DNA from: Pseudomonadota bacterium
GTDB lineage: Bacteria; Desulfobacterota; Desulfobacteria; Desulfobacterales; RPRI01
Reading direction: 5' to 3'
DNA length: 64,000 bases
Assembly: GCA_018817425.1 (NCBI GenBank)
Contig: JAHITX010000030.1
Coordinates: 1-64,000 of the forward strand
Shown: positions 3,271 to 33,522 of the stretch, in pieces
Layout: each line of letters opens with the position of its first letter
How positions within the stretch are numbered: position 1 is the stretch's first letter
Made by a program: the position numbers and the translations under genes
Notes under the pieces: generated by a model
Seen by the model: the letters and a program-made list of their open reading frames with translations, nothing else
Databases searched by the model: none
Told to the model about the DNA's origin: nothing

Positions 3271-3412
3271 GAACCACTTTCAAAATGTTTCAGTTTGGTC
3301 AAGCTCAAGGCGGGCGAAAATTTTAACCGCAGGAATACATGGCGTATTTCGAGGATTAAAATTTGAGCCCAACGCTGAGATCGGCCAAAATGGGGCGTTT
3401 TGAAACTGGCTC
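3271..3412 (+). repeat. 142-bp hairpin repeat, copy 2
   Basis: Same element as at 1-140, with a few substitutions (left end GAACC rather than GAGCC). It is flanked by ATAT on both sides (left ...gtaATAT, right ATATgagc), which looks like a 4-bp target-site duplication. It lies between the ClC gene and the long AT-rich region upstream of the PEP-CTERM gene. Confidence 0.85.
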
Positions 3413-3497
3413 ATATGAGCAAAGCCATTTTTTTAGATAGCAATCTTACCTAAAGTTCTATAAAAACCAATATAGTTTTTACACACCAATTCCATAC

Positions 3498-3514
3498 TGT
3501 CGGATTTCTTTACA
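3498..3514 (+). promoter_or_regulatory. Direct-repeat box 1 (TGTCGGATTTCTTTACA), putative activator site
   Basis: Exact 17-bp sequence TGTCGGATTTCTTTACA, repeated at 3608 and 3844. Boxes 1 and 2 also share flanking bases, giving a 26-bp identity, and their starts are exactly 110 bp apart. The half-sites TGTCGG and TTTACA are not a simple palindrome. It lies about 430 bp upstream of the sigma-54 promoter, a position typical of enhancer sites. Binding protein unknown; an NtrC-type activator such as PrsR is the obvious candidate (inference). Confidence 0.65.
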
Positions 3515-3607
3515 TATTCCAATATTCTTCCAAACATAGTTAACATCTTGGTAATTTAATATATTCATATATTTATTATATTATTTATACAATATGCCAT
3601 AACATAC

Positions 3608-3624
3608 TGTCGGATTTCTTTACA
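3608..3624 (+). promoter_or_regulatory. Direct-repeat box 2, putative activator site
   Basis: Second exact copy of the 17-bp box, about 300 bp upstream of the sigma-54 promoter and 110 bp from box 1, so both should lie at similar helical phase (about 10.5 turns). Confidence 0.65.
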
Positions 3625-3843
3625 TATTTTTATAAAAATTCTGTTTAAAGTTATTCTATATTTCTATTACATATAATTTCAGTCAATTATATTTTATTGA
3701 TAGTAATTACTAATAGTAAGCAAAATTAAATAAATAATTCAAAGGCAAATATAACTATCATAAATATATAGAATATAACTTACAAAAGTATATTGTTTAG
3801 TCATTTTATTTTAAATCAATATTTTCCATTATACCTATAAATA

Positions 3844-3860
3844 TGTCGGATTTCTTTACA
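3844..3860 (+). promoter_or_regulatory. Direct-repeat box 3, putative activator site
   Basis: Third exact copy of the 17-bp box, 65 bp upstream of the -24 element and roughly 100 bp from the expected transcription start: the usual position for a proximal enhancer of a sigma-54 promoter. Confidence 0.68.
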
Positions 3861-3924
3861 CTTCAAGGATTACATTGAATCCATAATTTTTATAAATTAT
3901 ATAATATTAATTAGTTATATATTT

Positions 3925-3940
3925 TGGCCCAATTATTGCT
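3925..3940 (+). promoter_or_regulatory. Sigma-54 (RpoN) promoter of the PEP-CTERM gene
   Basis: TGGCCCAATTATTGCT matches the -24/-12 consensus TGGCAC-N5-TTGCW, with the invariant GG (3926-3927) and GC (3938-3939) separated by exactly 10 nt. Transcription would start near 3951, leaving a leader of about 124 nt before the ATG at 4075. PEP-CTERM genes in other bacteria are known to depend on RpoN with the PrsK/PrsR two-component system. Confidence 0.75.
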
Positions 3941-4074
3941 TTGAAAAATAAAACCACATTATTGTTGCATTATAATAGTAATAATATATCGTACCCTATT
4001 GTTTTGTTTAGCAATTTATCTTATAATGTTTTCACTTATCATTATTCGATAGTGAGAGTTAGGAGAACCTATTC

Positions 4075-4641
4075 ATGAAGCGCATTTTGATTTGTTTTTT
4101 GACCTGTATAACTTTTTTATTGTGGGCAAATATCTTATTAGCAACACCAGTTGATTTAAGTACTTTTGTGGCAGAAACGGGAGTAGTTGAAAGCAGTGGT
4201 GTGGTTACATTTACTGAAGCTGATACTTCTTTTTCCGCTTTTTATTTTTATCATCCTGCTTTTTATGTAGAACCCTCAGCAACAAAACTTACCTTTGACT
4301 ATTCATTTACAGTTTGTCCTGAAAATGATGACTGGCTTGTTGCTGTCATTAATTTTACAGATTATAAAAAGGAATTTGGGGGTTATAATAGTTCTACAAC
4401 GGATGATTTAATTTTTTCCGGATCATGGACAATTGATATGACTCCATATCAGGGCTCAGTAATAGATTTGGCTTTTGGTTTCGAGGCAAATGATTGGGGT
4501 TATGACTCATATGGCACTATTTCAAATATTAATATTCAAACAAGTTCTTCCGTTCCTGAACCGGGAACCATGATTTTCTTGGGTACCGGATTAGCGGGCT
4601 TGTTTTGTATCGGTAGAAGAAAATTTCTTAAAAATTTATAA
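4075..4641 (+). CDS. PEP-CTERM sorting-domain surface protein
   Basis: 188 aa. Sec signal peptide at residues 1-24, then a beta-rich domain of about 130 aa that I do not recognise, rich in aromatic and acidic residues. The C-terminus is a textbook PEP-CTERM tail: VPEPGT, a hydrophobic helix (MIFLGTGLAGLFCIG) and a basic end (RRKFLKNL). Such tails are recognised and cleaved by exosortase (XrtA/EpsH) and the protein is handed to the cell surface or EPS matrix. AGGAG at 4061-4065 sets the start. No exosortase lies in the window, but the EPS locus at 47.5-58 kb has the content of an XrtA-associated locus. Controlled by the sigma-54 promoter and three upstream boxes. Confidence 0.9.
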   Translation: MKRILICFLTCITFLLWANILLATPVDLSTFVAETGVVESSGVVTFTEADTSFSAFYFYHPAFYVEPSATKLTFDYSFTVCPENDDWLVAVINFTDYKKEFGGYNSSTTDDLIFSGSWTIDMTPYQGSVIDLAFGFEANDWGYDSYGTISNINIQTSSSVPEPGTMIFLGTGLAGLFCIGRRKFLKNL

Positions 4642-5078: not shown

Positions 5079-8000
5079 ATGAAAGAGAAGAGTTCGACAC
5101 CTTGCCGATTTATAGTTTTTTCATTGTTTGTTTTGCTTCTGCTTAGCCTTTCTGCAATAGCTTCTGCTGCAACCGAAGTGACCGGGGAAATCGATTTAGT
5201 ACAATCAAGGATGATGTATGACCGCAGTACAAGTGTCAACTATCTGAACGTTTCTTTATACAATAAAGGTTCGCATAATTTAGAGACACCGGTTTGGGTA
5301 GTATTTGATAATATTTCAACAGATGCTGTAACCGTTAATAACCCAGATGGCACCACGGTTGACGGGAAACCATATTATCTTTATGATTCTGAAATTACAG
5401 GGGGTCAACTGTACCCCGAAAGTACATCAGGCTCCAAGAGTTGGTTTTTTAACAATCCGACTCGTGCAAGATTTTCTTTTAGTGTTATTGTTTATGCTGC
5501 CGGCCCGCCTGAAATAAGCATATCCAATCCTCTAAACGGTTCTGTTATAAGCGATGATACACCGTATATAACTTTAAATTTCAGTGACGCGGGCACAGGA
5601 TGCAATTTAAGTAGTTTCTATATCCAAATCGATGGAACGGATTACTCCGGTTTTTTTACTATTACGGATTCTTCTGCAACATATCAGGTTGTGACGCCCC
5701 TTGCCCAGGGAAGTCATGTTATTTCAGCATCAATTGAAGACAATGCAGGCAACACGGGTACTGCTGTTGCCAATTTTACCGTCTTTAGCAGTACGGCACC
5801 TGTTCGTTATATTTTTTCGGTTGAAGGAAATCCATGGATATTTGCCTCTCCAGGAGACGGAACCTACGCTGAATATATGAGCGGATGGAATCTTGGATTA
5901 TCCGATTTTTCAGATATAGTAGCCCTGAGCAAGGTTGACAACGGGGATGATGTATTTTTTTCGTTGGCCAGTGAAGGCGGCATATTACGATCTTTTGGAG
6001 ATGAAAACAAAGATGTTTATTTTAACAACACCATGCTGGGTCTTGCTGAGACAGACCGGATCAGTGCTGAGCACATAGGGCTTGATGGTTCCGTGGTTTT
6101 CTCAATTGAGGGTCAGGCTGATGTAAATGAGTCCTTTGGGGGAAATACATATTGGTCTTATCTATATAATAACCAACTTGGAATTGATAATACAGTTCAA
6201 TTGAAATGTATACATATTGGTTATGATAATGAGATTTATTTTTGCCGCTCTGACAATTCAGGAATATTTCTATCGGACGGGAATAGTGCAAACAGTCAGT
6301 TTCTAACGCTTGCAGATCTTGGTGTGTATGGATATGAAATTGACGGCTTTGCTATTATTCCTGAGTCAACTCCTCCTACAATAAACATTACCAACCCGGT
6401 TGATGGGGCATTTCTAAATACTATTACTCCGCTAATAACAGTCATTTTCAGTGATGCTGATTCAGGAATTGACAAATCAACTTTTTATGCCCAGATCAAC
6501 GGCACTGATATGACAAATGCTTTTACCGTAACGGAAACCGACGCCAGTTATCAAATCGCTTCCAGCTTGCCGCTTCCCGTGGGTAGCAATAGCCTGACTG
6601 TGAAGGTGAGTGACCTTGTCGGCAATGAAGCTATTGAGACCTCAAATTTCACTGTCGGCATTCTAAGGGCAATTCCGGGTGCCACGCCGGTTAGTGGTTC
6701 AGCCCCACTAACAGTTTATTTTAGTACGGATGGCGAAGACCCTGCAGGTACTATTGAAATATTCAGATGGGATTTTGACGGCAATGGTTCCTGGGATACA
6801 TATGATACGGTTGCAAGAGATTATAACCATACTTATAACACTCCCGGAGTCTATAATGCCGTATTATATGTTAAAAGCAGCACCGGCGAATCGGCTACAG
6901 CAACAGTAACCATAACGGTTCAAAACAATCCGCCGACCGCTACGGCAAATGTGCAACCTTCAAACGGTGAGGTGCCACTGACAGTTCAGTTGATAGGTTC
7001 GGGTTATGACAGTGATGGTAGCATTGTCCTTTATGAGTGGGACTATGAGGGAGATGGTATCTACGACTGGTCTTCTACTACAACCGGAAATACCAGCTAT
7101 ACATATACGAACATAGGAACTTTCAGTGCTGTATTCAGAGTGACGGATAACAGTGGTCTAACGGCAACGGCTCACGCAATGACCACAGTAATAAGAACAG
7201 GACCTCCTGGTTCACCTACTGCAACGGCTTCGGCAAACCCGACAAATGGTAACGCACCTTTGAATGTTAATCTTTACGGTAGCGCTACCGACCCGAATAA
7301 TGATGTGGTTCTTTATGAGTGGGATTTTGAAAGTGACGGCACATATGACTGGTCTTCTGCAACATCCGGAAATACATCGCATACTTATACGGAAGCCGGG
7401 ACTCATACTGCCACTTTTAGGGTTACGGATTCAACCGGGTTAACGGGGATTGATCAGATTTTGATTACGGTGAATGTACAGACAAGCCTATCTATTCAGA
7501 AAAATTCGGTAGGATTTTTGGGTGCCGGAATGACGGCAAGCGCCAGCAGCCAATATAATTCATCCTATTCGCCTGACAAGGCCATTGATGGGAATACCTC
7601 TTCAAGATGGCAATCAGCTTATAGAAAAACCCCCTATTATGGTGTTAATACATGGTTTGAAATTGCCTACAATACTCCTCAATTATTGAATGGCTTTTCT
7701 GTAAGATGGTATTCTTCATCATATAGAATGTCTAGAGCAAGAATTGATGTTTATGATAATAATAACAGTCTTATCTATTCACAGGAGATTAATTTTCCAA
7801 GTGTAACTACTTCTACAGTTTCACTACCTGCTTTAGGGAACGCAACGAGGCTTCGCCTTACTGCTATTACAAGCGCCAATAATGATTATGTGAGAATTAA
7901 TGAATTCTATTCTGATGGCACTCTGATGCCGGGAAGCCCTGAACCAATAGGCACCAATATCAATACATCCATAAGCGCCGGATCAAAGGTGTCAATTTTG

Positions 8001-8876
8001 ATTAAAGATGCTGATGGAAATGTGGTTAGAACCCTTGTGAATAATGAAAACAGGAATATGGGCTCATATGCTGATTATTGGAATTGCAAAGATGATAATG
8101 GAATTGCTGTGAATGATGGCGTTTATTATGCAGTTATGCAGTATATACTTGATGGTCAGGTTGTAACTTATGATTTGACGAATACTACCGGCGGAACAAG
8201 ATCTGACTTTCCGATAAGTAGCGGTTGTAATACCCGATCAGGAACCTGGACAGAAAATTTTAGCCCTTTCGATGATCAGAAAGGAGCTTATTCGTTTACG
8301 CTTTGCAGTGCACAAGAAGTGACGTTTTTTATCGGGCCGCTTTGGGGTGGATCAGATCCCACAAGAATCAGAACGATATTAAACAGAGAAGCCTTTCCGG
8401 CAGGTACGCATACCATCTATTGGGATGGATTGGATGATAATGGAAATATTGCCCAGGCAGGTTCTGGAGATCTTCTAATTACCGGCGCATGGCGCTATAG
8501 TCTGCCTAATAATTCAATGGTAATGACCGGCGGAAGGCCCGAAATCAGTAATGTCAGTGCAGATCCAAATTATTACAGCCCGTTTAGTGAAAAATGCGAT
8601 GAGAATGGTAATGGTGAAGGGGTGGTTATCAACTATAATATTTCTGAAGATGTAGTTTCGGTGGAGCTTCGGGTATACAGTATTGAGACAAGCGCTTTGC
8701 TGAGGTCATCCAATATGGGTAGTGTATCAGAAGGAGCGAATGTTGCCTTCTGGGATGGTAAAAACAATAATGGCGAATATGTTGACATAGGGGATTACCG
8801 GATCGGCCTGGTTGCAACAGATGCAGGCGGGAATACATCGATGTTCAGATATACGCTGGTTCGGATAGATTATTAA
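5079..8876 (+). CDS. Large secreted multidomain protein: Ig-like, PKD, discoidin and FlgD-like repeats
   Basis: 1265 aa with a Sec signal peptide (1-30). Order of modules: Ig-like domain (~141-237), a propeller-like stretch of short repeats (~245-425), second Ig-like domain (~431-525), three PKD domains (~528-613, 616-705, 707-797; the WDFDGNG, WDYEGDG and WDFESDG motifs mark them), an F5/8C (discoidin-like) carbohydrate-binding domain (~807-947), then three FlgD-type Ig segments (~961-1027, 1074-1140, 1184-1264; NGIAVNDGVYYAVM is typical). No catalytic domain or C-terminal anchor is visible. Domain content suggests a surface or matrix glycan-binding protein. It precedes the Rhs gene by 57 bp and may be co-transcribed with it. 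AGGGGG at 5068-5073 fixes the start. Confidence 0.85.
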   Translation: MKEKSSTPCRFIVFSLFVLLLLSLSAIASAATEVTGEIDLVQSRMMYDRSTSVNYLNVSLYNKGSHNLETPVWVVFDNISTDAVTVNNPDGTTVDGKPYYLYDSEITGGQLYPESTSGSKSWFFNNPTRARFSFSVIVYAAGPPEISISNPLNGSVISDDTPYITLNFSDAGTGCNLSSFYIQIDGTDYSGFFTITDSSATYQVVTPLAQGSHVISASIEDNAGNTGTAVANFTVFSSTAPVRYIFSVEGNPWIFASPGDGTYAEYMSGWNLGLSDFSDIVALSKVDNGDDVFFSLASEGGILRSFGDENKDVYFNNTMLGLAETDRISAEHIGLDGSVVFSIEGQADVNESFGGNTYWSYLYNNQLGIDNTVQLKCIHIGYDNEIYFCRSDNSGIFLSDGNSANSQFLTLADLGVYGYEIDGFAIIPESTPPTINITNPVDGAFLNTITPLITVIFSDADSGIDKSTFYAQINGTDMTNAFTVTETDASYQIASSLPLPVGSNSLTVKVSDLVGNEAIETSNFTVGILRAIPGATPVSGSAPLTVYFSTDGEDPAGTIEIFRWDFDGNGSWDTYDTVARDYNHTYNTPGVYNAVLYVKSSTGESATATVTITVQNNPPTATANVQPSNGEVPLTVQLIGSGYDSDGSIVLYEWDYEGDGIYDWSSTTTGNTSYTYTNIGTFSAVFRVTDNSGLTATAHAMTTVIRTGPPGSPTATASANPTNGNAPLNVNLYGSATDPNNDVVLYEWDFESDGTYDWSSATSGNTSHTYTEAGTHTATFRVTDSTGLTGIDQILITVNVQTSLSIQKNSVGFLGAGMTASASSQYNSSYSPDKAIDGNTSSRWQSAYRKTPYYGVNTWFEIAYNTPQLLNGFSVRWYSSSYRMSRARIDVYDNNNSLIYSQEINFPSVTTSTVSLPALGNATRLRLTAITSANNDYVRINEFYSDGTLMPGSPEPIGTNINTSISAGSKVSILIKDADGNVVRTLVNNENRNMGSYADYWNCKDDNGIAVNDGVYYAVMQYILDGQVVTYDLTNTTGGTRSDFPISSGCNTRSGTWTENFSPFDDQKGAYSFTLCSAQEVTFFIGPLWGGSDPTRIRTILNREAFPAGTHTIYWDGLDDNGNIAQAGSGDLLITGAWRYSLPNNSMVMTGGRPEISNVSADPNYYSPFSEKCDENGNGEGVVINYNISEDVVSVELRVYSIETSALLRSSNMGSVSEGANVAFWDGKNNNGEYVDIGDYRIGLVATDAGGNTSMFRYTLVRIDY

Positions 8877-8933: not shown

Positions 8934-11900
8934 ATGACGGGAAAAAATGTTAATATTGTAATAAAGTCGGTTTTGTTACTGACATTACTATCCTTTCTGG
9001 CTGTATCAAATAGCGCTTGGTCTTATAATAAGAGTTGGGATCAGGGGCATAAGTGTGTGAATCCTTCCGGTGGAAACAACGGTTGGGGTAAATACAATAA
9101 TGAAGGGGTATTTCATGGAGAATATACTTCAAAGGAATGTTGTGAATTATTTTGTAAGGTTTGCCCGGTTTATGCCAACACAGGCCGATACCAAAAAACT
9201 TTTACAGATCTAATGCTTGCAGGGAATGGTCCATCCTTAAAAATTACAAGAACATATAATAGCCAGGAGTGGACTTCAAGTCTACTTGGGTATAGCTGGG
9301 CTTTGAACTTTGGAAGAAAGCTAATCATTACAAGGAATAAGCATAATGAGAAAATAATTGGAGTGCTTCTGCAAACCGGAGAAAAGAACTTTTATAAAGA
9401 AGATGACAACGGCACTTTGACGCGCCTTACAAAATATGGCGCTAATTATGATTTAATAAAGAATGGTGATAATACTTACACGATTAATGAAAAAAACGGG
9501 CTAAAATATGAACTGAGAATTGACGGCAAGATTAACAAAATAGTTGACAGAAATGATAATGAATTAAATTTTTCTTATAATTCTGTTGGATGTTTAAGTC
9601 GTATTACCAATGCATCCGGGAATTATGTGGATTTTCAGCTTGGACCAAATGGTAAGATTTCCTCTATTTCAGATAATTTCGGTAGAAGTATAAGCTATGC
9701 CTATGATCAAAACGGAAATCTGATTTCGGTTACAGATCCTCTGGGAAATACGATGCAGTATGTATACAACAGCAATAATTTTTTAACACAGATTATTGAT
9801 GCAAGAGGAAATACAATTGAGACAGTGGGGTATGATACCCATGAACCCCCCAGGGTTTCTACTTTTAAAGAAAAAGGGGAGACATACACCGTTACGTATT
9901 TTGACAACAGAACAGAAAAGAAAGATTCTCATGGAAACAAGTGGACTTATTATTTTAATGATGTTGGTGTGATACAAAGTGTAGTCGATCCATTGGGTAA
10001 TACAAAGCAGTTACAGCTTAATAAGATTACCGCAACAAGTGTGGATTGGGAAGAGGATTTTAATGGGAACCGGACAACTTATACATATGACGCAGAAGGA
10101 AATATTGCAAGCAAGACCGATCCATTAGGGAATACTTGGAATTATTCATATGTTGCTGGGACTGATTTAGTTCAATCTGAAACTGACCCTTTGGGAAGGA
10201 TTACAAGGTATGAATATGATAGTAAAGGGAATTTAACAACCATTATTAGGGGGTTTGGCGGAACTTTAGAAAGTTCTACCTCCTATGTTTCAGATGAACA
10301 TGGAAATTTGGTTAGTCTAATAGATTCATTAGGTAATATTACATCCTATGAGTATGATAATAGTGGGAATTTGTTAAGCGAGATAGATCCGTTAGGACAT
10401 ATTACAAAGTACACTTATGATTATGCAGGGAATCGTCTCTCAATGATAGATGGAAATGGAAATACTACCAATTTTTCATATGATATTATGGGAAATTTAC
10501 TTTCCGTGAAAGACCCACTTAACAATGTAACTCAATATTTTTATGATGCTAATGGGAATAGAATTACTATTCTATTCCCCGATAGCACAGAGATACGTTT
10601 TACTTATGATCAATATGATAGGATAATTCAGAAAACTGACCCTATTGGCAACATACAAAATTTTTCTTATGATCATAATGATAATATAATAAGCATTGTC
10701 GATGCCAATGGTCTTCAAATGACGTTTTCTTACGATATCTTTGGAAGAAAGACTGGAAAAACTGACCCCAAAGGAAGCCATGTATCACTTGCTTATGATG
10801 CAAATGGGAATATGATTTCCTTTACCGATAAAAATGGCAATAAGACACTTTACAGTTATGACGCTAACAATAATTTAACGAATAAAACGCTGTCTGATGG
10901 AGTATCATATTTTTATACATATGACGTATTGGGAAACCTGACTGGAAAAACCGACCCTAACGGCAGCATAATTACTTTTTCTTATGATAGTTTGAATAGA
11001 ATGATATCAAAATCATATTCAGATGGAAGCATAACAAACTTTGCCTATGATCTTATTGATAGGAAGATACTGGAATCTAATGATAATTCCACGAATACTT
11101 ATTCTTATGATGCTGCTGGTAGATTGATTCAAACGTCAATGAACGGGAAAAATATAACATATACGTATGATGCAAGAGGCAATAAATTAACAACAATAAC
11201 TCCCGAAAATTTAACAATTAGCTATAATTATAATACTGCAAATTTGATGACGCAATTACAATTACCTGATGGGAAAGGAGTAAGTTACAGCTATGATTCT
11301 TTGAATAGAATTATCAGAAAAGATTATACCAATGGCAGTTATTCAACATACAGTTATTATGGAACGGGTAATTTGCAACAGATTTTAAATTATAATGCTG
11401 ATGGAACCATAATATATAATCAGCTTAATTCATTAAATAATACTGGAAATATAGTAACAAAAACATTGCTTGCCGGTACAACAAATTATTTTTATGATAA
11501 TAATAATCAGATAACTCAAATTATTTATCCAGATACATCTCAAGAGTTGTTTGCATATGATTCGATGGGCAACAGGTTGTCAGCGATTAATCAAGCTTCT
11601 TTGAATTATAACAATAGAAACCAGCTAATAAGCAGCGGTGAGAAAGCATTCAGTTATGATAACAATGGAAATATGCGGCATTTGTCTTCAAATAATTTTA
11701 TAACTAATTATGCTTATAATTATGAGAATCAACTCATTTCTATTGTTCCACAAGATGGAATACAGTCATTCTATAAATATGACGTGAAAGGGAAACGGAT
11801 TGAAAAACAAATTAACGGTGAATCAATAAAATTTATATATGACGGAAATCATCTTTTAGGCGAGTATGATTCTGATGGTAATTTAATAAGGAACTATTTC

Positions 11901-12650
11901 TATGGTGAGAGAGATATAAATCCATGTTTGTTATATGATTATCAAGCTAATATTTTATATAATATACAATCTGATCATTTAGGAGCGCCACATATAATCA
12001 AAGATGAATCAGATAATGTTGTTTGGGCAGCTTCATATTCAGCATTTGGAATGATAGAGATATCTGTTGAGAATATCACTTATAATTTCCGATATCCGGG
12101 CCAGTATTTTGATTCTGAAAGTAATTTGGCATATAATATTAATAGATTTTATTGTTCCGAATTTGGAAGATATATTACTGAGGATCCCATTGGGCTTAGA
12201 GGTGGACTAAATAGTTATATATATTCTTCAAATAATCCTATTAATAATATTGATCCATTAGGACTAAAGGTCATTGCTTGTAAAAGGCCATTTGAATTCG
12301 GTAGTAAATGGTGGCAGAGGGGTGGCGCTTGGGTGTTCCCACCGCGGCATTGTTATTTGCAATTTAATAATAACAAATCTGACTCATGGGGTTATGATGA
12401 CAATGGTGTCCATAGAGAGATTAATCCAAATAAACCAACCAAATGTAAAGAAGCTAAAGGTGGTGGAAACAATAAGAATTGTCAAGACCAATGCATACGG
12501 AATAATATCCTTAAATACCAAAATGGACTAATACCTGGATGGGCTGGTAGTGATTATAAATTCATTAAGCATAACTGTTGCGATTGGGTAAGAGATAGTT
12601 TGAAAAGATGTGGAATGGAATTACCTTTTGTCGTTAATGCAGGGTTTTAG
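8934..12650 (+). CDS. Rhs/YD-repeat protein with variable C-terminal tip
   Basis: 1238 aa. Signal peptide (1-30), a DUF6531-like N-terminal segment (~75-130), about 25 YD repeats (G-N-x-x-x-x-Y-D-x-x-G type) to ~residue 1000, then the conserved Rhs core ending in DPIGLRGG and D1107-PLGL. After it comes a 127-aa unique tip with H1139 and N1214-C1215-C1216-D-W, a spacing that recalls permuted papain-like (NlpC/P60- or LRAT-type) domains. Rhs proteins make a shell around a toxic C-terminal tip. No VgrG, PAAR or Tc partner is nearby, so Sec export is the visible route. The start follows a strong AAGGAGAGG site. The next ORF lies 8 bp downstream, the usual place for an immunity gene. Confidence 0.88.
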   Translation: MTGKNVNIVIKSVLLLTLLSFLAVSNSAWSYNKSWDQGHKCVNPSGGNNGWGKYNNEGVFHGEYTSKECCELFCKVCPVYANTGRYQKTFTDLMLAGNGPSLKITRTYNSQEWTSSLLGYSWALNFGRKLIITRNKHNEKIIGVLLQTGEKNFYKEDDNGTLTRLTKYGANYDLIKNGDNTYTINEKNGLKYELRIDGKINKIVDRNDNELNFSYNSVGCLSRITNASGNYVDFQLGPNGKISSISDNFGRSISYAYDQNGNLISVTDPLGNTMQYVYNSNNFLTQIIDARGNTIETVGYDTHEPPRVSTFKEKGETYTVTYFDNRTEKKDSHGNKWTYYFNDVGVIQSVVDPLGNTKQLQLNKITATSVDWEEDFNGNRTTYTYDAEGNIASKTDPLGNTWNYSYVAGTDLVQSETDPLGRITRYEYDSKGNLTTIIRGFGGTLESSTSYVSDEHGNLVSLIDSLGNITSYEYDNSGNLLSEIDPLGHITKYTYDYAGNRLSMIDGNGNTTNFSYDIMGNLLSVKDPLNNVTQYFYDANGNRITILFPDSTEIRFTYDQYDRIIQKTDPIGNIQNFSYDHNDNIISIVDANGLQMTFSYDIFGRKTGKTDPKGSHVSLAYDANGNMISFTDKNGNKTLYSYDANNNLTNKTLSDGVSYFYTYDVLGNLTGKTDPNGSIITFSYDSLNRMISKSYSDGSITNFAYDLIDRKILESNDNSTNTYSYDAAGRLIQTSMNGKNITYTYDARGNKLTTITPENLTISYNYNTANLMTQLQLPDGKGVSYSYDSLNRIIRKDYTNGSYSTYSYYGTGNLQQILNYNADGTIIYNQLNSLNNTGNIVTKTLLAGTTNYFYDNNNQITQIIYPDTSQELFAYDSMGNRLSAINQASLNYNNRNQLISSGEKAFSYDNNGNMRHLSSNNFITNYAYNYENQLISIVPQDGIQSFYKYDVKGKRIEKQINGESIKFIYDGNHLLGEYDSDGNLIRNYFYGERDINPCLLYDYQANILYNIQSDHLGAPHIIKDESDNVVWAASYSAFGMIEISVENITYNFRYPGQYFDSESNLAYNINRFYCSEFGRYITEDPIGLRGGLNSYIYSSNNPINNIDPLGLKVIACKRPFEFGSKWWQRGGAWVFPPRHCYLQFNNNKSDSWGYDDNGVHREINPNKPTKCKEAKGGGNNKNCQDQCIRNNILKYQNGLIPGWAGSDYKFIKHNCCDWVRDSLKRCGMELPFVVNAGF

Positions 12651-30224: not shown

Positions 30225-30725
30225 TCAGTCTGGCATTTTTTTAAGCAGAATATGAAACAACAATATACACATCCCGATGGAAATAGCACTGTCTGCAACA
30301 TTAAATGCCGGCCAGTGTAAATTTCCTATATAGAAATCCAGAAAATCAACAACTTTCCCGAAACGTATTCTATCAACCAAATTTCCCAACGCTCCGCCAA
30401 AGATCAAGGCAAGAGCAGTTGCAAGCATAGAATAATTTCTTGGCGTAACTTTATAAAAATAGAAAATAAGACATAATGCAAGAAATGAAATAACAACAAA
30501 AACCAGTTTTCTGATAACAGGGCTTTGGTCTGAAAGAAATCCAAATGCTCCACCAGGATTATGAATATGGGTAAGGCTGAAAAAACTGTCAATAACCGGT
30601 ATGGAATGATAAAGCGGCATATATTTTAATACTATTATCTTTGTAGCCTGATCAAGCAAGAGAACTATTCCGGCTATAATTATAAGTTTTATATATTTAT
30701 TTATTTTCACTTTACTATTTGCCAT
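30225..30725 (-). CDS. lspA: Lipoprotein signal peptidase II
   Basis: 166 aa, four transmembrane helices. Catalytic aspartate regions [20 protein letters not shown] and FNVADSAI are intact; [12 protein letters not shown] is the other conserved box. It cleaves the signal peptide of diacylglyceryl-modified prolipoproteins. The start overlaps the ileS end by 11 bp. The stop codon is almost at the edge of the 142-bp repeat, so insertion occurred right behind the gene without damaging it. Confidence 0.96.
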
Positions 30726-33522
30726 TTACTATTTGCTTAAGTGCATCCTGGCATCTGTTGCAAATAGTTGGTGCATCAGCGTTTGAGCCTACGGACATAT
30801 CGTAAATCCAACATCTTTCACACTTTTTTCCAGGTGCCGGTTCTGCTGAAATATATAGCCCTTCTATCTCATGGCTTTGTGTCGAACCTTCGTGTTTCCC
30901 GTTTTTAATCAAAGTCACATCCGAAGTAATAAAAATAGTTTTTAATTCTTCTAAATATTCGGCAAGAAGATCAAACAAATCATCTTTTGCGGATATTTTA
31001 ACAGAAGCATTAAGCGAGTGCCCGATTATTTTTTTAGCTCTTGCTTCTTCAAGTACCTTGGTAACCTCGGTACGAACTTCGATTATTTTTTTCCATTTTT
31101 GTCCAAGAGCTTTATCTTTCCATTCATCAGAAGCAGCAGGCAAAAGGGCAAGATGAACGCTTTCTTCTTTACCTTTATATGCAGGCATGGCTTTCCATAT
31201 ATCTTCTGAAGTAAAGGGAAGAATCGGAGCCATAATTTTTGTAATAGAATCAAGTATTAAATACATAACGGTTTGTGCACTTCTTCGCTCTAAGGACTCA
31301 GAATACGAAGTATAAAGCCTGTCTTTTAAAATATCGAGATAAAAAGCCGATAGATCTGTTGTGCAATAATTATAAAGGCTATGATATATTGTATGAAATT
31401 CATAAGAATCATAAGCCTTAATTGTCTTTTCTGTCAGTTCGCAAAGTTTAAAAAGAGCATACTTGTCTATTTCAGGCATCAAACCATATTCAACTTTGTC
31501 CTTTTCATAATCAAAATCAAATAAATTTCCCAGCATGAACCTGCATGTATTTCTGATTCTTCTGTAGGCGTCACTTAATTGTTTGAGTATATTGTCGGAA
31601 ATCCGGATATCATCCCTGTAATCGGAAGCGGAAACCCAGAGCCTTAGGATTTCGGCTCCGTATTTATCTATAACCTTTTTGGGAGCAATTACATTGCCAA
31701 TAGATTTTGACATCTTTTTGCCATTTGCATCAACAACAAATCCATGGGTCAAAACCGATTTGTAAGGAGCCTTTTCTCTTGTCCCAACTGAAGTTAGAAG
31801 AGAGCTGTGAAACCATCCTCTATGCTGATCGCTTCCTTCAAGATACAGATCTGCAGGCCACTTAAGATACGGGCGCTGTTCAAGTACTGCGGCATGGCTT
31901 ACCCCCGAATCAAACCATACATCAAGGATATCCGTTTCCTTTCTGAAAGTATCACTTCCACATTTACTGCAAATACTTCCCTCGGGAATAAGTTCTGATG
32001 CTTCTTTTTCAAACCATATATCTGCTCCGTGTTCTTTGAAAAGCTCAAACAAATGATCAGCTATCTTTTGATTAATATGAAGAGCATTACATTTTTCACA
32101 GAAGAAAACAGCTATTGGGACACCCCATGCACGCTGTCTTGAAACACACCAGTCCGGTCTGTTTTCAATCATTCCGTAAATTCTTTCTCTTCCCCAGGCA
32201 GGCATCCATTTTACCCTGTCGATTTCTTCAAGTGCTTTTTTTCGAAGACCTGTTTTATCCATGGAAATAAACCACTGAGGCGTTGCCCTGAAAATAACGG
32301 GCTTTTTACAACGCCAGCAATGGGGATAAGAATGTGAGATTTTTTCTTCGGCAACAAGAGAGCCTGATTCTTTAAGTTTTAAAACTATATCGTCATTTGC
32401 CTTAAAAACAAATTTACCATTAAAAAATTCCACATCATCTGTAAAACAGCCATTGTCATTAACAGGAGAATAGGTATCAAGACCATACTGAAGACCAACT
32501 TCATAGTCTTCCCGTCCATGCCCTGGAGCCGTATGGACACAACCTGTACCGGCATCTAACGTAACATGATTGCCAAGTATTATAAGTGAATCCCTGTTAT
32601 ATAAAGGATGTAAACAATGTTTTTTCTCAAGCAGCTGTGCTCTTATTTCACAAAGAACCGAATAGTCCGAAATATCAAAAATTTTCATGCACTTTTGGGC
32701 AAGGTCGGAAGCTAATATAAATACTTCATTGTTTCCCACATCTACCGCAGAATATTTGAAATCAGGATGCAAAGCCACAGCAAGATTTGCAGGAATAGTC
32801 CATGGAGTTGTTGTCCAGATAACTATATATGTTTTTTTACCTGAAAGCTCCGGAATTTCTTCTGAGACATCATCTGAAAGTAAAAATTTTACAAATACTG
32901 ACGGAGATGATGCATCCTCATATTCTATTTCAGCTTCCGCAAGTGCTGTTTTACAGCTACAGCACCAGTGTATAGGCTTTTTGCTATGAAAAAGACTTCC
33001 TTCCAAAGCGAATTTGATACATTCTCTGGCAATGATAGCTTCGTATTCATAGGCCATTGTGAGATACGGATTATCCCACTCAGCTAAAACTCCGAGTCTT
33101 TTGAATTCTTCACGCTGTATGTCAACATATTTTTCTGCATACCGCCTGCAAAGCTTTCTTATCTGGGCCTGGGAATGTTTTTTGGCTTCAGAACCAAGCT
33201 CCTTATCAACATTATGTTCTATAGGCAGCCCGTGGCAGTCCCAACCCGGAACATATACAGCGTTAAAATTTGCCATCTGCCTGCTTCGAACTATAATATC
33301 CTTTAATATTTTGTTTAATGCGGTTCCGATATGTATATTCCCGTTTGCATAGGGAGGACCGTCATGGAGAATAAAAAATTCCCGATCATTTGAAGCAGTT
33401 CGTATCTTGTTATATAAATTAATATCTTCCCATACTTTTAATAAAACAGGTTCCCGCTTTGCCAGATCGGCTTTCATGGCAAACCCTGTAATGGGAAGAT
33501 TAAGCGTTTTCTTGTAATCCAT
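30715..33522 (-). CDS. ileS: Isoleucyl-tRNA synthetase
   Basis: 935 aa from ATG at 33522 with GGAGGAG just upstream. Class I synthetase motifs: [18 protein letters not shown] (HIGH motif) and [11 protein letters not shown] (KMSKS). The CP1 editing domain lies between them. The C-terminus has a zinc-binding set ([10 protein letters not shown], then ICNRCQDAL). Charges tRNA-Ile. Part of the common ileS-lspA gene order. Confidence 0.97.

Follow-up and report, generated by a model that had tools for sequence, protein, structure and literature searches.

A probable PrsR-controlled sigma-54 enhancer and promoter of a PEP-CTERM gene, and the helically phased spacing of such boxes

The window, that is, the whole 64,000-nucleotide stretch of DNA analysed here, carries near its beginning a gene on the plus strand (4075-4641) that encodes a PEP-CTERM sorting-domain protein of 188 amino acids. 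The protein starts with an N-terminal signal peptide, as read from its sequence, ends with the C-terminal segment VPEPGTMIFLGTGLAGLFCIGRRK, and matches both PF07589 (28.5 bits, cut-off 20.7) and TIGR02595 (20.6, cut-off 16). A probable ribosome-binding site, AGGAG, can be read off the plus strand at 4061-4065. No close orthologue of this protein was found in the genus, and its best match beyond the genome, 38% identical, belongs to another family. The PEP-CTERM gene is soon followed by a gene for a large secreted protein of 1265 residues (5079-8876) with PKD, F5/8 type C, and FlgD Ig-like domains, for which neither a box of the kind described below nor a PEP-CTERM tail was seen. The region 8934-12650 encodes a 1238-residue protein with RHS/YD-type repeats, judging by eye from the translation.

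The region upstream of the PEP-CTERM gene (3417-4074) has a G+C content of 22%. It contains three exact copies of the 17-mer TGTCGGATTTCTTTACA, all of them on the plus strand, at 3498-3514 (box 1), 3608-3624 (box 2), and 3844-3860 (box 3), as an earlier note on this DNA had claimed. These are the only exact copies in the window, and no further sites were found there with up to three mismatches allowed; shuffled sequence yields a mean of 0.32 sites at three mismatches, with none of 100 shuffles reaching three sites. The two distal boxes lie 110 bp apart, and their identity extends past the 17-mer (atacTGTCGGATTTCTTTACAtatt); box 3 lies 236 bp beyond box 2. A good sigma-54 (-24/-12) promoter element, TTGGCCCAATTATTGCT, follows the proximal box on the same strand after a gap of 63 nt, which is also the most frequent gap among related loci. 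The element occupies positions 3924-3940, with GG at 3926-3927 and GC at 3938-3939, and corresponds to the GG-N10-GC promoter that had been placed at 3925. Its core, TGGY-N7-YTGC, occurs in 17 of 4000 Markov sequences of equal composition. Counting from the -12 GC, transcription on the plus strand is predicted to start near 3951, as previously proposed.

A direct repeat of about 143 bp is present at 1-140 and again at 3273-3415. It has at least 40 copies in the genome, nearly all with 93-97% identity, and its ends look like mutual inverted repeats, resembling those of a MITE; since many copies are located at contig ends, the repeat probably fragments the assembly. The second copy stops shortly before box 1, at about 3415, which might suggest that the 17-mer belongs to a mobile repeat, or to some other repeat without a regulatory role, and is not a binding site. 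The boxes, however, fall outside the repeat, the sequence between them is largely unrelated among promoters, and they are found in one orientation, together with sigma-54 sites, in many phyla. The mobile-repeat explanation is contradicted by these observations, and the chance that the 17-mer is a non-regulatory repeat is negligible.

A search of the whole genome (5.12 Mb) points instead to a regulon. The pattern TGTCGG-N5-TTTACA has 43 exact sites, compared to none for a reversed control pattern. When a few mismatches are allowed, 19 clusters of at least two boxes are found; 12 of them have three boxes, making this the commonest multi-box form in the genome. Strong sigma-54 sites lie downstream of many proximal boxes, at gaps near 62, 94, 105, or 126 nt. 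At least one box lies within 700 bp upstream of 11 of the 27 PEP-CTERM matches that have enough upstream sequence, and other clusters stand ahead of genes that are absent from the family-search list but encode VPIPGA/VPLPSA-type tails. Nearly all multi-box targets that can be resolved encode PEP-CTERM or VPxP-tailed secreted proteins, most of them with a sigma-54 site, while a few clusters reach the end of a contig, stand before other genes, or have no assignable gene after them (those on contigs C74, C34, and C25, and one on C63). The box type is thus enriched ahead of both PEP-CTERM genes and sigma-54 sites, the outcome by which the earlier note had proposed that a regulon would be defined, and the regulon reading is well supported.

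On C74 (1597-1721) and C34 (3068-3084), boxes with sigma-54-like sites stand before genes without an evident PEP-CTERM tail, which are possible non-PEP-CTERM targets of PrsR. Additionally, the promoter regions on C123 (97142-97572) and C134 (955-1385) are near-duplicates of each other (87% identity). Two of their boxes lie on one strand and a third on the opposite strand, so that a divergent gene may be controlled as well.

The regulator expected to act on such a regulon is encoded in the genome. The genes prsR (at about 30555-31913) and prsK are adjacent on contig C20; PrsR matches TIGR02915 with 642 bits (cut-off 502.6) and PrsK matches TIGR02916 with 403 bits (cut-off 300). PrsR consists of receiver, sigma-54 activation, and Fis-type domains, and its sigma-54 contact loop reads GSFTGA rather than GAFTGA. 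The best match to TIGR03109, the EpsH/XrtA exosortase family, scores 205 bits, the cut-off being 208. Among 291 genomes of the class to which the host belongs, a box with a sigma-54 site was found in 7 of 22 PrsR-positive genomes and in 3 of the 269 others (Fisher p 5e-7, uncorrected for shared ancestry).

The same genome encodes more than 40 sigma-54 activators, and a common motif has been predicted for DVU0110 and DVUA0057 in Desulfovibrionales (PMC4641369), so that the binder could be a protein other than PrsR. Were the boxes bound by another activator, such as a DVU0110-like response regulator, PrsR would be absent from them or secondary, and boxes do occur in some genomes of the same genus that lack a PrsR above the cut-off. 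Across the class, however, the box with its sigma-54 site accompanies PrsR, and the genes targeted by the box are PEP-CTERM genes, the defining targets of PrsR as described by Haft et al. in 2006 (PMC1569441). Another activator in the place of PrsR is accordingly very unlikely. Judged from its sequence features, the region is very probably a PrsR-controlled sigma-54 enhancer and promoter of a gene for a PEP-CTERM surface protein. The binding of PrsR to these boxes is inferred, as are the direction in which the gene is regulated and the part played by the distal pair.

The arrangement closely resembles one that has been known for some time. In 2006, Haft et al. reported a motif 1 of 17 nt with TTTACA at its 3' end, repeated in some cases and separated from a sigma-54 motif by a spacer of 62.8 nt on average (range 32-92); this motif region precedes 99 of 167 proteobacterial PEP-CTERM genes, and PrsR was the proposed binder (PMC1569441). 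That region and the locus in the window share a 17-nt, TTTACA-ended motif, a gap of about 63 nt, and a sigma-54 site, in addition to single-gene PEP-CTERM operons, long upstream regions, and the presence of PrsR and PrsK in the genome (PMC1569441). The box fits motif 1 in its length, its TTTACA end, its repetition, its spacing, and the genes that it targets. Because Haft et al. described the same arrangement, both the box and its repetition were already known, and the novelty attributed to the box and its triple arrangement in the earlier note is not supported: the box fits the 2006 motif (PMC1569441), and the triple arrangement is the form taken by 12 of the 19 clusters in this genome. The remainder of that reading, an NtrC-type enhancer acting with RpoN and PrsK/PrsR on a PEP-CTERM gene, stands as a prediction, supported by the enrichment across the regulon and by the adjacent PrsR and PrsK. 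Two features differ from the 2006 account. Promoters here usually have two or three boxes, and the phased spacing of about 101, 112, and 122 bp, seen across many assemblies, is not described in that paper (PMC1569441).

Comparison with Desulfovibrio vulgaris brings in a regulator that has been studied directly. DVUA0057, which is 52% identical to the PrsR of the host across the alignment, binds the promoters of the DVUA0032-0031 and DVUA0036-0041 operons by DAP-chip (PMC3333781, PMC4641369). On the plasmid of D. vulgaris RCH1, boxes with one mismatch are located upstream of the genes that match these two operons, the correspondence having been established by gene order and annotation. The two regulons are alike in having a PrsR homologue, PEP-CTERM promoters (bound in vitro in the case of DVUA0057), and near-identical boxes (PMC3333781, PMC4641369). 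They differ in extent, since the DVUA0057 regulon comprises six operons, with one recognisable box per inspected stretch, as opposed to 43 exact sites in the host genome. In Aquincola tertiaricarbonis, the PEP-CTERM gene pepA has a mapped, RpoN-dependent -24/-12 promoter with a predicted enhancer upstream (PMC9850573), the same combination of gene, promoter type, and predicted enhancer as in the window. Its promoter was proven experimentally, whereas that in the window is predicted from sequence; the parts of that account consulted here do not discuss a multi-box layout (PMC9850573).

Whether the distal boxes contribute can be approached through related promoters. Since no close orthologue of the gene was found in the genus, paralogous promoters were used for the footprint; those on contigs C30 (the window), C1, and C111 are 66-74% identical. 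When these are aligned, conservation is concentrated in islands at all three boxes and at the sigma-54 core, an argument for the distal boxes being in use. A promoter with a 102-bp pair in another genome of the genus aligns poorly outside the boxes. Being paralogous, the three promoters also owe some of their similar geometry to inheritance, and many genomes make use of fewer boxes, both of which would agree with a proximal box and promoter that function alone, the distal boxes being leftovers of a duplication of the promoter region. Relics would not be expected, though, to persist as intact islands amid diverging flanks, nor to show helically phased spacing in 56 assemblies, and we consider this explanation unlikely.

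The phasing emerged when 84,980 species genomes were scanned for pairs of boxes with a spacing of 97-127 bp. This gave 106 stretches, mainly from Proteobacteria and Desulfobacterota, while a few belonged to MAGs from other phyla. With one weight given to each assembly (the 80 loci listed come from 56 assemblies), the distances between boxes peak at about 101, 112, and 121-125 bp and are nearly empty at 105-108 and 116-117 bp. Randomisations of two kinds, 5000 of each, never gave a phasing as strong; being confined to 97-127 bp, the scan tests phase within that range and not a preference for about 110 bp. The latter preference is drawn from the spacings in five genomes taken with no distance limit, where 59 of 88 neighbouring spacings fall between 80 and 130 bp. 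Two pairs from the genome G297 (188 and 121 bp) are left out of the spacing tally, with the conclusion unaltered. Extra boxes beside a pair share its orientation in 13 cases and oppose it in none. The gaps between box and sigma-54 site likewise advance in steps of about 11 bp (61-63, 71, 82-86, 95, 105, and 119-129). The 110-bp pair in the window lies close to the 112-bp peak. In this genome alone the phasing of distances between boxes is suggestive (p 0.057), and support for it comes from the multi-genome set. A Planctomycetota MAG (JAJRRS010000151.1) has seven boxes in a regular array that advances by 102 or 204 bp at a time.

Phased spacing of this kind looks like cooperation of PrsR on one face of the helix or looping by PrsR. 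Tentatively, we can propose a PrsR enhancer grammar, possible rather than probable, in which boxes in direct orientation occupy one face of the helix at intervals of about 9, 10, or 11 turns, the gaps to the promoter change in steps of about 11 bp, and PrsR units cooperate via a small DNA loop. A similar tolerance is found in the sigma-54 enhancers of the Vibrio qrr genes, in which length changes of 10-11 bp are tolerated (PMC4740811), as they are in the box gaps here. The qrr system belongs to the LuxO regulon, however, and its tolerance concerns the length of the loop between enhancer and promoter, not the spacing from box to box (PMC4740811). No earlier report of a spacing rule for PrsR boxes was found in the literature searched, where this rule alone among the features described here appears to be unreported.

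The most likely sequence of events at the locus is of the NtrC type. PrsK, a membrane kinase, would be expected to phosphorylate PrsR, which would use its Fis-type helix-turn-helix to bind the three 17-bp boxes and would then assemble. By looping, PrsR would touch the sigma-54 RNA polymerase parked at 3924-3940 and would use ATP to open the promoter. Activation probably proceeds mainly from box 3, the one nearest to the promoter, while the distal pair, separated by about ten turns and thus on one face of the helix, probably aids assembly or looping.

With these results, the 2006 prediction of PEP-CTERM regulation also covers a little-known bacterium and its large regulon; the genus of this bacterium includes, in addition, a MAG deposited as Desulfonema limicola. 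The novelty lies in a modest architectural regularity in the spacing of the boxes. If the proposed grammar is true, PrsR boxes some 110 bp apart would contrast with the closely packed sites of NtrC, and the phased multi-box spacing predicts an assembly of PrsR for which insertions of half a helical turn would be harmful and those of a full turn harmless.
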